A stretch of DNA of 64,000 nucleotides from Chloroflexota bacterium. GTDB taxonomy: Bacteria > Chloroflexota > Anaerolineae > Aggregatilineales > Phototrophicaceae. Location of the stretch: NCBI GenBank assembly GCA_009841405.1, contig VXLV01000032.1, forward strand, positions 82,174-146,173, given 5' to 3'. The translations under genes and the position numbers were made by a program. Shown here one piece after another: positions 17,497 to 23,082 of this stretch (position 1 is the stretch's first letter; each line of letters starts with the position of its first letter). The notes below the pieces were generated by a model. It ran no database searches. It had not been told where the DNA came from and saw only the letters and a list, made by a program, of their open reading frames with translations.

Positions 17497-18198
17497 CTAA
17501 GCCCAGAAGGCTTTCTCAAGATCGTCAAACTCGGCAGCGGGGCCTTCGAATTTATTCCGCCCCAGCTCGAGCACATAGACATAGTCGGCGATCTTCAACG
17601 CTTCGCGGATTTCCTGGTCGACCAGGAGAATTGTCAAGCCCTCGACATCGCGCAGGTCAACCAACATGCGGTAGACTTCTTCGCTGAGCAATTTCGCCAG
17701 GCCCGCGGTTGGCTCGTCGACCAGAATGACTTGCGGGTCGGTCATGAGCGTGCGGCCGATTTCTACCATGCGCTGCTGTCCACCAGAGAGGCTGCCGGCC
17801 TGGTCGTGCTGTTTCTCCCGCAAAATCGGAAAGCGCTCGTAATTCTCTTCGATCTTGCCTTCCATCCGTTTCTTGTCATTCTGAAAGGTCCAGGCGCCCA
17901 TCATCAAGTTTTCGCGCACGCTCATGTGTTTGAACACGCCGGGCTGCTGCGGAATGTAACTGATGCCGAGGCTGATCAGTTGGTGGGTCGCCGTGCCGGT
18001 GACATCGCTGCCATTGAGCAGGACCTGTCCGCTATGCGGCTTCAGGAATCCGTAGATTGCTTTTAGCAGCGTCGATTTGCCGACGCCGTTAGCGCCCAGA
18101 ATCGCGGTGATCTTTCCGGTTTCCGCCGCCAGGCTAAGCCCGCGCAGAATATGCAGGTCTTCGTAGTAACCGACGTAGAGATCATTGATCTCGAGCAT
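17497..18198 (-). CDS. livF: Branched-chain amino acid/amide ABC transporter ATP-binding protein
   Basis: Walker A GANGVGKST, signature LSGGQQRM, Walker B VILVDEPTAG; operon position. Confidence 0.93.
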   Translation of the reverse strand: MLEINDLYVGYYEDLHILRGLSLAAETGKITAILGANGVGKSTLLKAIYGFLKPHSGQVLLNGSDVTGTATHQLISLGISYIPQQPGVFKHMSVRENLMMGAWTFQNDKKRMEGKIEENYERFPILREKQHDQAGSLSGGQQRMVEIGRTLMTDPQVILVDEPTAGLAKLLSEEVYRMLVDLRDVEGLTILLVDQEIREALKIADYVYVLELGRNKFEGPAAEFDDLEKAFWA

Positions 18199-18200
18199 GT

Positions 18201-18935
18201 TTAGTCATCCTCTTCATGGCCGAGGTAGGCGTCGATTACGGCGGGATCGTTCTTCACCGATTGCGGATCGCCATCGGCGATCAGCGCGCCATGATGCAGC
18301 ACCAGCAGCCGCTGGCTCAATTCGAAGACGGCATTCATGTCATGGCTGATGAAGATGATTGCCTTGCCACTTTCATGAACGCGGTGGATGTAGCTGGTTA
18401 TAGTTTCTTGCAAAGTCGGATGTACGCCGGCGAAGGGCTCGTCGAGGACAATAACGGCCGGGTCCAGCATGAGCAGGCGGCCCAATTCCAGCAGTTTGCG
18501 CTGCCCGCCGCTCAAGGCCCGGCTGTATTCATGCGTCAAGTGGTCGATTGTCAGCAAGCCCAGAATCTCGTGCGCCCGGTCTTCCAGGTCGGCTTTGCGC
18601 GCGTTGGGTTTCAACGCCAGGCCGGGCACCATCATGTTTTCCATCACGGTCATGCGGCCCAGCGCGCGCGTGATCTGGAAGGTTCGGCCCAATCCGGCGC
18701 GGGTAACGTCATAAGCCGGGTGACCGTCAATCCGCCTGCCGTTGAGATAGATCGTGCCCGAGCTAGGTTTGAGCATGCCGCTCAGCACATTGGTCAGCGT
18801 TGTTTTTCCGGCGCCATTGGGGCCGATCATGCCGATCAACTCAGGTTTCGTGACGGAGAACGATACGTGGTCAACCGCTTGATTGCCGCCGAAGCGTTTG
18901 GAGACCTTGTTGAGTTCCAGATTGATGTCACTCAT
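18201..18935 (-). CDS. livG: Branched-chain amino acid/amide ABC transporter ATP-binding protein
   Basis: Walker A GPNGAGKTT, LSGGQRKLLELGR, VIVLDEPFAG; internal Met start at 18935. Confidence 0.93.
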   Translation of the reverse strand: MSDINLELNKVSKRFGGNQAVDHVSFSVTKPELIGMIGPNGAGKTTLTNVLSGMLKPSSGTIYLNGRRIDGHPAYDVTRAGLGRTFQITRALGRMTVMENMMVPGLALKPNARKADLEDRAHEILGLLTIDHLTHEYSRALSGGQRKLLELGRLLMLDPAVIVLDEPFAGVHPTLQETITSYIHRVHESGKAIIFISHDMNAVFELSQRLLVLHHGALIADGDPQSVKNDPAVIDAYLGHEEDD

Positions 18936-20097
18936 CGTCCGCCTCCAGCGGCGCGTCGGCGTAGTCGTCATCGTCCTTGCGCTTGGATACGGTCTCCTTC
19001 ATGGCGAGGTCGCGCCCGCTGAACCAGGTGATGAAGGGATAGAGCAGGCCATTGCGCATGTATCGCAGGGTAAAGACCATGACTACGCCGAACAAGGCAA
19101 AGCGCCAGGCGCCCGTCTCCCAGACGAAGGCGTCGCCGCCATCGGCGGTTGTGAGGCCGAATGGCAGGGTAATGACCACTTCGCGCATCGCTTCCAGCAG
19201 ATAGCGAGAAATGAAGGCGCCGGCCGCCGCGCCGATCAAGCTCTCCATGCCGCCGATCACGGCATAGGCGATGATCAGCGACATCTGCAGCACTTCAAGT
19301 TGTTCGGGGATAATCCGCTCCGAGCCGACATCGCTATAGAATATCGCGCCGGCAAGACCGACAATCATGCTTGTGAAGACGAATATCAGGATCTTGTAGC
19401 GCACGACGTTGACGCCCAAAGCTGACGCGGCGTCCTCATCCTCGCGCATGGCGCGCAGGAAGAGGCCGATGGGCGAGTTGGCCACCCAGTGCATGGCGAG
19501 CAGACAGACGATCAAGAGCGCGAACATCAAGTAATATTCGACCTGCCGCGCCGTGTCAACGTCCGCAATTTGCAGCAGCGGACGCAGCGACAAGCCGTTT
19601 GAGCCGCCGGTGTAGTCGTACTCCGTCAGCATCATGATGCGGAACAGCTCGGAGAAGGCGATAGTGAAGAGCGCCAGGTAGGCCGCGCGCAGCCGCAGCA
19701 GGAGCCAGCCGATGACCAGGCCGACCAGGCCGGCGACCAGCGTGCCGATGATGATCGCGCCCAACGCGGAGAAGGACTCCGGCGTAATCGCGATTCCCAG
19801 CATCGCGAACACTATGCCGTCTCGCGCGATCAAGCCGGCAGCGTACGCGCCGATGCCCATGAAAGCCATGTGACCGAACGAGAACTGACCGGCGATGCCC
19901 GCCAACAGCGCCCAGCTGGACGACATAATCGCATAAAAGAAGCCGCTGATGAAAACGGTCTTGGCGTAGTTAGACTGTGATGTGTCGTTGGGGAACCACA
20001 GGAAGAACAAAATGACAAGGCCGAGCACGACGTATCCCAGACGGCGGCGGCCGATGCCCTGGTCGATTCTGCTTTCGATTTGTCGGAAGTATTCCAT
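18928..20097 (-). CDS. livM: Branched-chain amino acid/amide ABC transporter permease
   Basis: LivM-type multi-TM: SWALLAGIAGQFSFGHMAFMGIGAYAAG; acidic C-terminal tail. Confidence 0.92.
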   Translation of the reverse strand: MEYFRQIESRIDQGIGRRRLGYVVLGLVILFFLWFPNDTSQSNYAKTVFISGFFYAIMSSSWALLAGIAGQFSFGHMAFMGIGAYAAGLIARDGIVFAMLGIAITPESFSALGAIIIGTLVAGLVGLVIGWLLLRLRAAYLALFTIAFSELFRIMMLTEYDYTGGSNGLSLRPLLQIADVDTARQVEYYLMFALLIVCLLAMHWVANSPIGLFLRAMREDEDAASALGVNVVRYKILIFVFTSMIVGLAGAIFYSDVGSERIIPEQLEVLQMSLIIAYAVIGGMESLIGAAAGAFISRYLLEAMREVVITLPFGLTTADGGDAFVWETGAWRFALFGVVMVFTLRYMRNGLLYPFITWFSGRDLAMKETVSKRKDDDDYADAPLEADDE

Positions 20098-20099
20098 GA

Positions 20100-21647
20100 C
20101 TATAGCTGCTCCCGGCCGAAGAGCCCGGTGGGTTTCAGCAGCAGCACCAGGGCGAATATCACTAGCGCAAAGGCTTCTTTGTAGGCGGCGCCGCGGCTGG
20201 GGTCGGGGTGGCAGCCGGCGCCCAGGGCTTCCACAATGCCAACGACGATGCCGCCAACCAGCGCGCCGGGCACGGAGCCCAATCCGCCAAGCACGACAAT
20301 GACGTACGAGCGCCCGACCATTTCGGCGCCGACCCAGGGCACCCAGGCGAAGATCGGGATCAGCGCTGCGCCGGACATGGCCGCCAGCATCGAACCCATG
20401 CCGAATGACAAAGTGTTCATATTAGTCGGGTTGATGCCGGTTACGGCGGCCGCTTGCCGGTCCTGGCTGGTGGCGCGCAAGGCGCGACCGGTCCAAGTGC
20501 GCTGCAAAAAGTAGAGCAGGGCGAAGATCAGAATGATGCCCACGACCATCGCGAAGGCGCGGTCGCCAATGATGTTAATGGGGCCAAAGGCGAAGTCGTC
20601 CGTGATCTGCGTCCGCTGCAAAGTGAAGCGGCGAATATCAATGAAGCGGTCGGTGCGTTGCGGGAATGGGCCGGCGACCGCCAGGGTCGTGTACTCAATC
20701 ACGAAACCGAAGCCGAAAGTAATGAGAATAGCGTATTCGGATACGCGCTCAATTAGCCCTTCGTGCATGGGCTTCAAGAAGAAGCGTTCGAATACGGCGC
20801 CCATTAGAAAGACAATTGCGGCCGCGACGGGAATGCCCCAGATGGGGTTCACTTGTACTTCAGTCCCGGTCAGTTCGCTGAGCAGATTGCCGGCGTGCAA
20901 CAAGAAATAGAATGAGAAATAACCGCCAACCATATAGAGCTGCCCGTGGGCGAAACTCACGATGCCTTGCACGGAATAAATCAGAGTCAAGCCAACCGCC
21001 ATCAATGAATAAATGCACCCGATGACGACGCCATTTGCCGTCTGCTGCGTCAAGTATGTGACCGAGAATGGCGCTTGCACACAGGGATTGGTCGGATTTT
21101 GAATGGCGAAGAGCGTATAAATCTGCCAGGCGCCCAGCGAACCGAGGATGATCATCCAGTCGCGATTGATTTTGGGCGTGGTCTTCCACATCAGGCCGAA
21201 TATCAAGGGGCCGATGGCAAAGCCGCCGAGAGCGGCCGCGGTCAGGACATTCTGGTCATCGGCTTCCTCGTCGCGGTAATGACGGGGAATGAAGTAAGCC
21301 GCCAGCGCCGCCCAGAGCGGGCCCGCCAGTAACAGCCACAGCGCGGAGGGAAAATGCGGATCCACCACCCGCACCATCACCTGAGATGTGACAAACACGG
21401 TGAGGACGACGCCGATGGTCAGGGTCGTCCGGCGTATGAGCGTCGGCTCGAAGTAGAACAAGCCGAGGCCGACTGGCCCCAAGGCGAAACCGCCGATGAC
21501 GCCGGCAATCTTGAGGGTAGTGGCGGGAATCAAGTCTTCATTCTTGCGCCCGCGGTTGACGTTGGGCAGCAGAAACAAACCCACGGCCGCCCATAACGGA
21601 CCGGCGACCATGAGCCAGAGAACAAATAGGGTGTCTTGAATGACCAT
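20100..21647 (-). CDS. livH: Branched-chain amino acid/amide ABC transporter permease with N-terminal repeat extension
   Basis: LivH core from ~res 198 (YLTQQTANGVVIGCIYSLMAVGLTLIYSVQGIVSFAHG) preceded by ~195 aa hydrophobic extension. Confidence 0.9.
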   Translation of the reverse strand: MVIQDTLFVLWLMVAGPLWAAVGLFLLPNVNRGRKNEDLIPATTLKIAGVIGGFALGPVGLGLFYFEPTLIRRTTLTIGVVLTVFVTSQVMVRVVDPHFPSALWLLLAGPLWAALAAYFIPRHYRDEEADDQNVLTAAALGGFAIGPLIFGLMWKTTPKINRDWMIILGSLGAWQIYTLFAIQNPTNPCVQAPFSVTYLTQQTANGVVIGCIYSLMAVGLTLIYSVQGIVSFAHGQLYMVGGYFSFYFLLHAGNLLSELTGTEVQVNPIWGIPVAAAIVFLMGAVFERFFLKPMHEGLIERVSEYAILITFGFGFVIEYTTLAVAGPFPQRTDRFIDIRRFTLQRTQITDDFAFGPINIIGDRAFAMVVGIILIFALLYFLQRTWTGRALRATSQDRQAAAVTGINPTNMNTLSFGMGSMLAAMSGAALIPIFAWVPWVGAEMVGRSYVIVVLGGLGSVPGALVGGIVVGIVEALGAGCHPDPSRGAAYKEAFALVIFALVLLLKPTGLFGREQL

Positions 21648-21712: not shown

Positions 21713-21741
21713 ACAAGGGCGACCGAATCAGTCGCCCTTGT
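21713..21741 (-). terminator. Stem-loop/weak intrinsic terminator between livJ and livH
   Basis: Perfect 11-bp stem ACAAGGGCGAC / GTCGCCCTTGT, 7-nt loop, short U-run TTTCC on minus strand. Confidence 0.65.
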
Positions 21742-21753
21742 GTTTGCGAATCG

Positions 21754-23082
21754 CTAAGGTGTGGTTCCCGGCACGATATAGCTGGTACCGTGGGTCTGAT
21801 AGACCTCGGGATAAACGACTGCCGCTTCCAGTCCGCTTTGACCCGGCTCGTAGTATTGCATGACAGTCACGATCGGGTCTGGCCATTGATGCCACATAAA
21901 CTCCGGCGTGCCTTCAGGCAAGTCGGGATTATGCGCGCCGTACGCGAAGTAGTAGCGCCCTTGGGACAGCTCGATATCGACTGCCTCGATCGCGCCGACG
22001 ATGGCGGCGGCGTCATCATAGCTGCCGGCGCGTTCCATCGCGTCCTTCACAATATAGACCGCGTCGTAGGAGGCCATGGCGAAGCTGGGAATGAGATCCC
22101 CCCAGGCTTCCTCGTACTTGCCGTTCAACTCGGCTGCAGCTTCGCTGAACAAGCTTGGGATGATGCCCACGCGATTGAAGGCGCAGTAGTTGCCATCGGG
22201 GACGGTCGCCCAATACTGATCCGACTGGAAGGCGATCTGATTGGTGACGCAGATGGTGTCTTCGGACGGCGCGATGCCCAGCTCCGACATTTGCTGCGTG
22301 AGGTTGAACGACGTCTCGCCCGTGACCAAGATGCGGATGACATCTGGCGCTTCGGCGCGCGCCTGAATCCGGCTCAAGATCGGGACGAAGTCTTCCGTGC
22401 CCAATTCGACGTCAATCTTGGTGACGGTAGCGCCAGCCGCTTCAAAGCGCTCAGCTTCGTCGGCCGCCGCCGGTTGACCGTAGTCCGTGTTTTCCACGAT
22501 CAAGACAACATCTTCGACGCCCAGGCTGAGCAGCCAGTCGACGACAACGCTGCCGACCATCGAGCTGGCGGGCGAGATCCGGAATATGTGGTCGATACCG
22601 TCTGCAAACCGCGGCGGCGCGCCATCGTATTCGAGGATGCCGTTGGCGCTGACGTTGTCGTTCCAGGGCTCGGAGAAGACGGTCGGAATCGCGTTCGCTT
22701 CCAGCATGCCCATGGTCGCCAAACCGACCGCGCTATGGTAGACGCCCACCATCGCGTCGACGCCGTCTTCCTGGATCAGGCGCTCAGTTACCGCTTGGCC
22801 GCGCTCGGGGCTGCCTTCGGAATCGCCCGTGACGACATCAAGCATGTAATTCACGCCGTCAATCTGTACGCCGCAGTCGGCGTTGATATCGTCGGCTGCC
22901 TGGTTAAAGGCCCAGTCCATGGCGACGCCGCCGGCTACCGCGCCGGGCGCGGATAAGGGCGCCAAGCCGCCGATCGTGATGGTGTAATCTGCGAATTCGC
23001 AATGCCCGTCGGCCTGCGCCATGCCCATCGGCATAATGGCAAGCAAGGCAATCAGGCAAATCAAGATGGTCTTGCGTTTCAT
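21754..23082 (-). CDS. livJ: Branched-chain amino acid/amide ABC transporter substrate-binding protein
   Basis: Signal peptide MKRKTILICLIALLAIMPMGMAQA; periplasmic-binding type 1 domain ITIGGLAPLSAPGAVAGG. Confidence 0.92.
   Translation of the reverse strand: MKRKTILICLIALLAIMPMGMAQADGHCEFADYTITIGGLAPLSAPGAVAGGVAMDWAFNQAADDINADCGVQIDGVNYMLDVVTGDSEGSPERGQAVTERLIQEDGVDAMVGVYHSAVGLATMGMLEANAIPTVFSEPWNDNVSANGILEYDGAPPRFADGIDHIFRISPASSMVGSVVVDWLLSLGVEDVVLIVENTDYGQPAAADEAERFEAAGATVTKIDVELGTEDFVPILSRIQARAEAPDVIRILVTGETSFNLTQQMSELGIAPSEDTICVTNQIAFQSDQYWATVPDGNYCAFNRVGIIPSLFSEAAAELNGKYEEAWGDLIPSFAMASYDAVYIVKDAMERAGSYDDAAAIVGAIEAVDIELSQGRYYFAYGAHNPDLPEGTPEFMWHQWPDPIVTVMQYYEPGQSGLEAAVVYPEVYQTHGTSYIVPGTTP

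Follow-up and report, generated by a model that had tools for sequence, protein, structure and literature searches.

HAAT-family importers count among the most common ABC systems of bacteria. The closest described counterpart of the permease analyzed here is the LivH/BPD_transp_2 type of HAAT permease (E. coli LivH, NF008011; PF02653), which it resembles in its core (residues 196-515), in the accompanying LivM, LivG and LivF proteins and in a Peripla_BP_6 substrate-binding protein (SBP). E. coli LivH differs in its length (308 aa), in having no N-terminal extension, in its shorter last loop and in carrying neither of the two cysteines described below. The urea permeases UrtB/UrtC (TIGR03409/TIGR03408) provided the best NCBIfam model for the LivH core, at 134.2 bits. 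Because this score is far under the TIGR03409 cut-off of 250.3, the UrtB identity was rejected and the UrtB/UrtC substrate was not assigned to LivH; no NCBIfam equivalog cut-off was reached by the core.

Membrane extensions of HAAT permeases have been described on the partner subunit. DUF3382 (PF11862), the N-terminal domain of E. coli-type LivM, also adds about 100 aa to the N-terminus of such a permease; however, it sits on LivM rather than LivH and has no sequence relation to the extension reported here. Homology to DUF3382 was rejected, as the extension has no PF11862 match and hhalign against the N-terminus of E. coli LivM gave a probability of 0.1. Weak PF11862 matches in the source genome fall elsewhere than the extension. 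Other N-terminally extended LivH proteins are present in Chloroflexota (e.g., L074-L078, about 410-520 aa), but their extensions are of other sequence, and they have neither the unit described below nor the cysteine pair. Our literature search found no paper on N-terminally extended LivH, no experimental work on the present LivH group and no cryo-EM structure of LivH/LivM.

The importer operon and its permease

The window, i.e., the whole 64,000-nt stretch of DNA that was analyzed, contains a complete HAAT-type importer operon on the minus strand, with the gene order SBP-livH-livM-livG-livF. The same order was observed in those loci of relatives that were read, as far as each stretch reaches. 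The features are as follows:

21754..23082, minus strand: gene for the operon SBP, with a signal peptide and no lipobox (Peripla_BP_6, E 9e-46; N-terminus read)
21713..21741, minus strand: intrinsic-terminator-like hairpin between the SBP gene and livH (13-pair stem plus T tract; folding z-score -3.7)
20100..21647, minus strand: livH, encoding a 515-aa permease subunit of the HAAT family with a duplicated extension at its N-terminus (ORF list; BPD_transp_2; full-length genus orthologs 97-80% identical)
21357..21647, minus strand: unit 1 (residues 1-97), the extra copy (homologous to unit 2; dN/dS 0.23 in 30 genus members; missing from single-unit relatives)
21081..21356, minus strand: unit 2 (residues 98-189), the ancestral, class-wide copy (alignments A2 and A6; 58/396 class genomes, E < 1e-11; dN/dS 0.115)
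21081..21083, minus strand: codon for Cys189, which lies in the NPCV/NLCV linker joining unit 2 to LivH (invariant in 52/52 extension-bearing proteins)
20211..20213, minus strand: codon for Cys479 in the last LivH loop, GAGC-PDPxRxxAY (52/52 extension-bearing proteins; 0/58 LivH of other groups in the order; Leu/Tyr in the eight nearest extension-less LivH)
20103..21062, minus strand: LivH core, residues 196-515 (Pfam; dN/dS 0.058)
18928..20097, minus strand: livM, partner permease, 389 aa (BPD_transp_2, E 1.5e-39; gene order common to relatives)
18201..18971, minus strand: livG, ATPase (ABC_tran and BCA_ABC_TP_C); the listed start overlaps livM, and the true start may lie a few codons downstream
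17497..18198, minus strand: livF, ATPase (ABC_tran, E 3e-35)

Judged by its domain and operon, LivH of the window is a LivH-type permease, for which amino acids are candidate substrates only. The strong hairpin ahead of livH could reduce the expression of the permease genes relative to that of the SBP gene. In addition, LivM has a strongly acidic C-terminal tail (KRKDDDDYADAPLEADDE). In another genome (G089), a single 631-aa frame encodes a LivH-LivM fusion (L079, 1589 onward, plus strand), and similar frames of 613-656 aa are found in other genomes of the order.

Translation and internal homology of the extension

The initial annotation had described a 515-aa ORF with an N-terminal extension of about 195 aa, which was confirmed by the Pfam analysis: BPD_transp_2 matches only residues 204-502 (E 1e-36, 126.9 bits vs a cut-off of 26.8), and two homologous units, 195 aa in all, lie ahead of a normal LivH core. 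The possibility raised with it, that the true start lies near residue 195 and that the extension is merely an artefact of annotation, could draw on the length of the core alone, which is that of a usual LivH, and on the first livH ATG in the window, which has no clear ribosome-binding site ahead of it. Nevertheless, 30 members of the genus align across all 515 codons with zero indels, and triplet periodicity, with third-position changes dominating, is evident from codon 1. Median dN/dS in these members is 0.23 for unit 1, which is the least constrained part of LivH, 0.115 for unit 2 and 0.058 for the core. The first ATG, or the ATG three codons further in, is kept among relatives while the sequence upstream is unrelated, and several relatives have AGGAG-type (Shine-Dalgarno-like) sites 8-9 nt before it. 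By contrast, the later in-frame Met91 and Met165 are not conserved, many relatives having Leu or Ile there. Because of this codon constraint, the kept ATG and the non-conserved later Met codons, a start near residue 195 is excluded for practical purposes, and we regard an artefact as almost certainly not the explanation. The extension is translated and under purifying selection.

The internal duplication that had been noted, with a spacing of about 90 residues, is also borne out. The repeated segments, LWLMVAGPLWAA...GGFALGP near residues 10-62 and LWLLLAGPLWAA...GGFAIGP near residues 103-152, lie 93 residues apart. Comparison of the unit-1 and unit-2 profiles by hhalign gave a probability of 99 and an E value of 3e-18, with 36% identity over 70 columns, and the unit-2 model recovered unit 1 at E 9.7e-11 in a whole-genome search. 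Low-complexity hydrophobic segments can produce false similarity, and weak matches of the unit to unrelated membrane proteins do occur, so that the likeness might merely reflect two sets of glycine-rich membrane helices. We therefore note that unit 1 scored 38.0 bits against a model built without any unit-1 sequence, whereas the best of 2000 shuffles preserving its helix and loop composition reached 22.3. These shuffles rule out chance similarity of hydrophobic helices and, together with the hhalign E value and the occurrence of both one-unit and two-unit states among relatives, make that explanation highly improbable.

Each unit had been thought to consist of two transmembrane helices; instead, three hydrophobic helices are predicted per unit, the middle one being broken at a conserved Gly-Pro. 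In unit 1 they span about residues 8-28, 44-66 and 75-95. Sequence homology between the units is demonstrated for helices one and two and for the loop that comes after them; the third helix falls outside the alignable part.

Besides the internal match, residues 1-195 have no Pfam or NCBIfam match, and neither the unit nor the whole LivH has a significant PDB match in sequence and profile searches. AlphaFold models were of low confidence (mean pLDDT of 50 for the full protein and 62.5 for the extension), and a Foldseek search returned nothing below E 0.7. The earlier impression that this is not a described LivH domain was thus upheld by the Pfam, NCBIfam and PDB searches of the repeat. Judged from these comparisons, the extension is a previously undescribed membrane domain of LivH, while the LivH core itself is of a known kind.

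Distribution and history of the unit

Of the 34 genus genomes, 33 carry the two-unit form, which also occurs in a single sister genus (G140). The sole genus genome without the extension, G033 (8.5 Mb), is roughly double the size of the rest, which may mean that its assembly is mixed or was grouped wrongly. LivH proteins with one unit occur in two further genera of the family, G135 (416 aa) and G121 (409 aa). Using the unit-2 model (E < 1e-11), extension-bearing LivH was detected in 58 of 396 sampled Anaerolineae genomes; all class matches that were read are LivH fusions in a frame of about 400-460 aa. The fusion of unit and LivH occurs at about 50 loci in many Anaerolineae families, within SBP-H-M-G-F operons, and 21 of 46 genomes in the order of G433 carry the extension. 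Named relatives are Chloroflexi/Anaerolineae metagenome-assembled genomes. A phylum sample contained 2 positive genomes out of 400, a figure that says little on classes beyond Anaerolineae, and no unit match was present among 72,556 plasmids. The extension normally consists of one unit, about 95 aa long, and belongs to one LivH ortholog group; among the genomes sampled, two units are confined to the source genus and its one sister genus.

A tree of LivH cores gathers every extension-bearing protein into a single clade (bootstrap 100), to which the extension-less orthologs are sister lineages. In a further LivH tree, G135 branches nearest the genus, followed by G140. A tree of the units joins the unit-1 sequences of the genus and of G140 (bootstrap 100) and separates them from all unit-2 sequences and single units. 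Because the unit-1 copies group together and G135 sides with the genus in the LivH tree, the simplest account involves a single duplication and a single loss: a lineage-specific tandem duplication in the ancestor of the genus and G140, with unit 1 later lost in G135. The 344-nt gap between the SBP gene and livH of G135 holds no remnant of unit 1. Given the long unit-1 branches, a second, independent duplication is possible but less likely. Since unit 1 evolves faster and was apparently lost once, this extra copy is probably dispensable or peripheral.

Similar membrane stretches were also found outside LivH. A LivG-type ATPase of G122 (L240, 7357-8466, minus strand), whose gene lies in an operon with LivH-, LivM- and LivF-like genes, has an N-terminal two-helix membrane stretch matching the unit at E 2.7e-7, and in the reverse search from this stretch the best matches were LivH units, down to E 6.4e-7. 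Moreover, stand-alone small two-helix membrane proteins of about 65-80 aa with the HERTGRDVTMGG motif (L235, 1271-1510, plus strand; L236; L237; L238) match the unit weakly; the genes of L235 and L237, the two read in detail, sit between mfd-like and pth-like genes. The LivG fusion and the small proteins suggest a wider family of two-to-three-helix modules, and we treat them as leads only. Several other proteins showed weak resemblance to the unit: sugar-type ABC permeases with extra membrane segments, either N-terminal (L255, 408-aa frame) or inserted (L038/L039, 662-aa frames), and SPFH/stomatin-like proteins (L037, 1723 onward, plus strand; L040, minus strand) whose N-terminus has two helices weakly resembling unit 1.

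Cysteine pair, sidedness and possible roles

All 52 distinct extension-bearing proteins have a Cys just after the unit (NLCV/NPCV; C189 here) and another in the loop that leads into the final helix of LivH (GAGC-PDPxRxxAY; C479 here), and many single-unit proteins have no cysteines beyond these equivalents. At the 479 column, Cys is absent from all 58 LivH proteins that represent other groups in the order; at the 189 column it occurs in two of them, both of which look like alignment noise. The eight nearest extension-less orthologs in the class, found by a class search with the L139 core (seven of them 61-64% identical to it), share the operon layout and keep the PDPxRAxxY loop; they have Leu or Tyr at the C479 position and lack the linker Cys. 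The unit, the linker Cys and the loop Cys thus arose on the same branch and have been retained jointly since. The link between cysteines and extension goes back to a single tree branch, i.e., one coincidence plus long retention; because of this single branch, it is not to be read as repeated co-evolution. The matched pair in domain-bearing proteins suggests that the extra domain is attached to the transporter by a disulfide.

Sidedness was assessed by the positive-inside rule together with the positively charged GRALRATSQDRQAAAVTGI segment (about residues 387-405 of LivH), which matches the cytosolic coupling region of the permease family. The C-terminus of LivH is positively charged as well. 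Counting helices outward puts the C479 loop outside, and the same counting predicts an outside position for the N-terminal linker, which has no K or R across the whole genus, as an outer segment should. Since both the linker and the C479 loop are counted outside, C189 and C479 would both face the oxidising side. Within the units, the charges of the loops are ambiguous, some of those in unit 1 and in single units being at odds with a simple three-crossing model, and the middle helix of the unit may re-enter rather than cross the membrane.

The reading that we favor, with moderate confidence, is that the extension is a structural accessory membrane domain, duplicated in this lineage and pinned to LivH by a disulfide; we infer the disulfide, its sidedness and the role of the domain from sequence. 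Among the Anaerolineae importers of the HAAT (branched-chain/polar amino acid) type, the domain would belong to a single LivH ortholog group and be integral to the membrane. In its basic form, one unit (about 95 aa, three hydrophobic helices) would precede the linker PDNLCV and the LivH core, and tandem duplication of the unit in the ancestor of the genus and its sister genus would have produced the 195-aa extension. The extension may pack on the outside of the LivH-LivM pair and add helices round LivH as an assembly or stability element, with an exofacial disulfide between C189 in the linker and C479 in the loop preceding the final helix of LivH pinning it to the permease. The initial annotation had proposed a regulatory or assembly module; the assembly part is compatible with the evidence, and the regulatory part has gained no positive support.

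A regulatory module gating transport on a membrane signal would be consistent with the conserved polar and aromatic residues of the unit and its invariant Trp/Pro/Tyr/Gly-Pro pattern. However, the extension contains no soluble or ligand-binding domain, it has no match to a known sensor family, and unit 1 is the part of LivH under least constraint, all of which make such a role unlikely. We assign a similarly low probability to a docking platform on the outer face that holds a soluble SBP near the permease, possibly in the absence of an outer membrane. In its favor, the operon SBPs of the genus, G135, G140 and G121 have a signal peptide and neither a lipobox nor a LysM domain. But the extension also occurs in operons whose SBP is a lipoprotein or has a LysM-like start, so that the domain does not track the absence of an anchor, and another SBP of the source genome, beside an extension-less LivH, is likewise without a lipobox. 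Plain, lipoprotein and LysM-type SBPs all accompany the extension, so its use as a substitute for the lipid anchor of the SBP is unsupported. The SBPs with a LysM-like N-terminal domain (WLSKLADKFLGD...) belong to the single-unit operons L132, L134, L137 and L139-L142; other SBPs are lipoproteins, and those of the genus are neither.

The extension-bearing proteins form a clade in which an added membrane domain occurs in one or two copies together with a matched cysteine pair, for which natural cysteine-less controls exist, and they permit a clean test of what extra helices do in an importer. The unit also gives a domain model with which several dozen proteins now called plain LivH can be annotated. 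More tentatively, and with considerable doubt on our part, the unit may be a reusable accessory membrane module of Chloroflexota ABC importers, attached to LivH by a disulfide in one clade, duplicated here, fused as two helices to LivG in G122 and related to small stand-alone membrane proteins. If this is true, these importers carry a removable membrane scaffold of variable copy number, which is undescribed for this transporter family.
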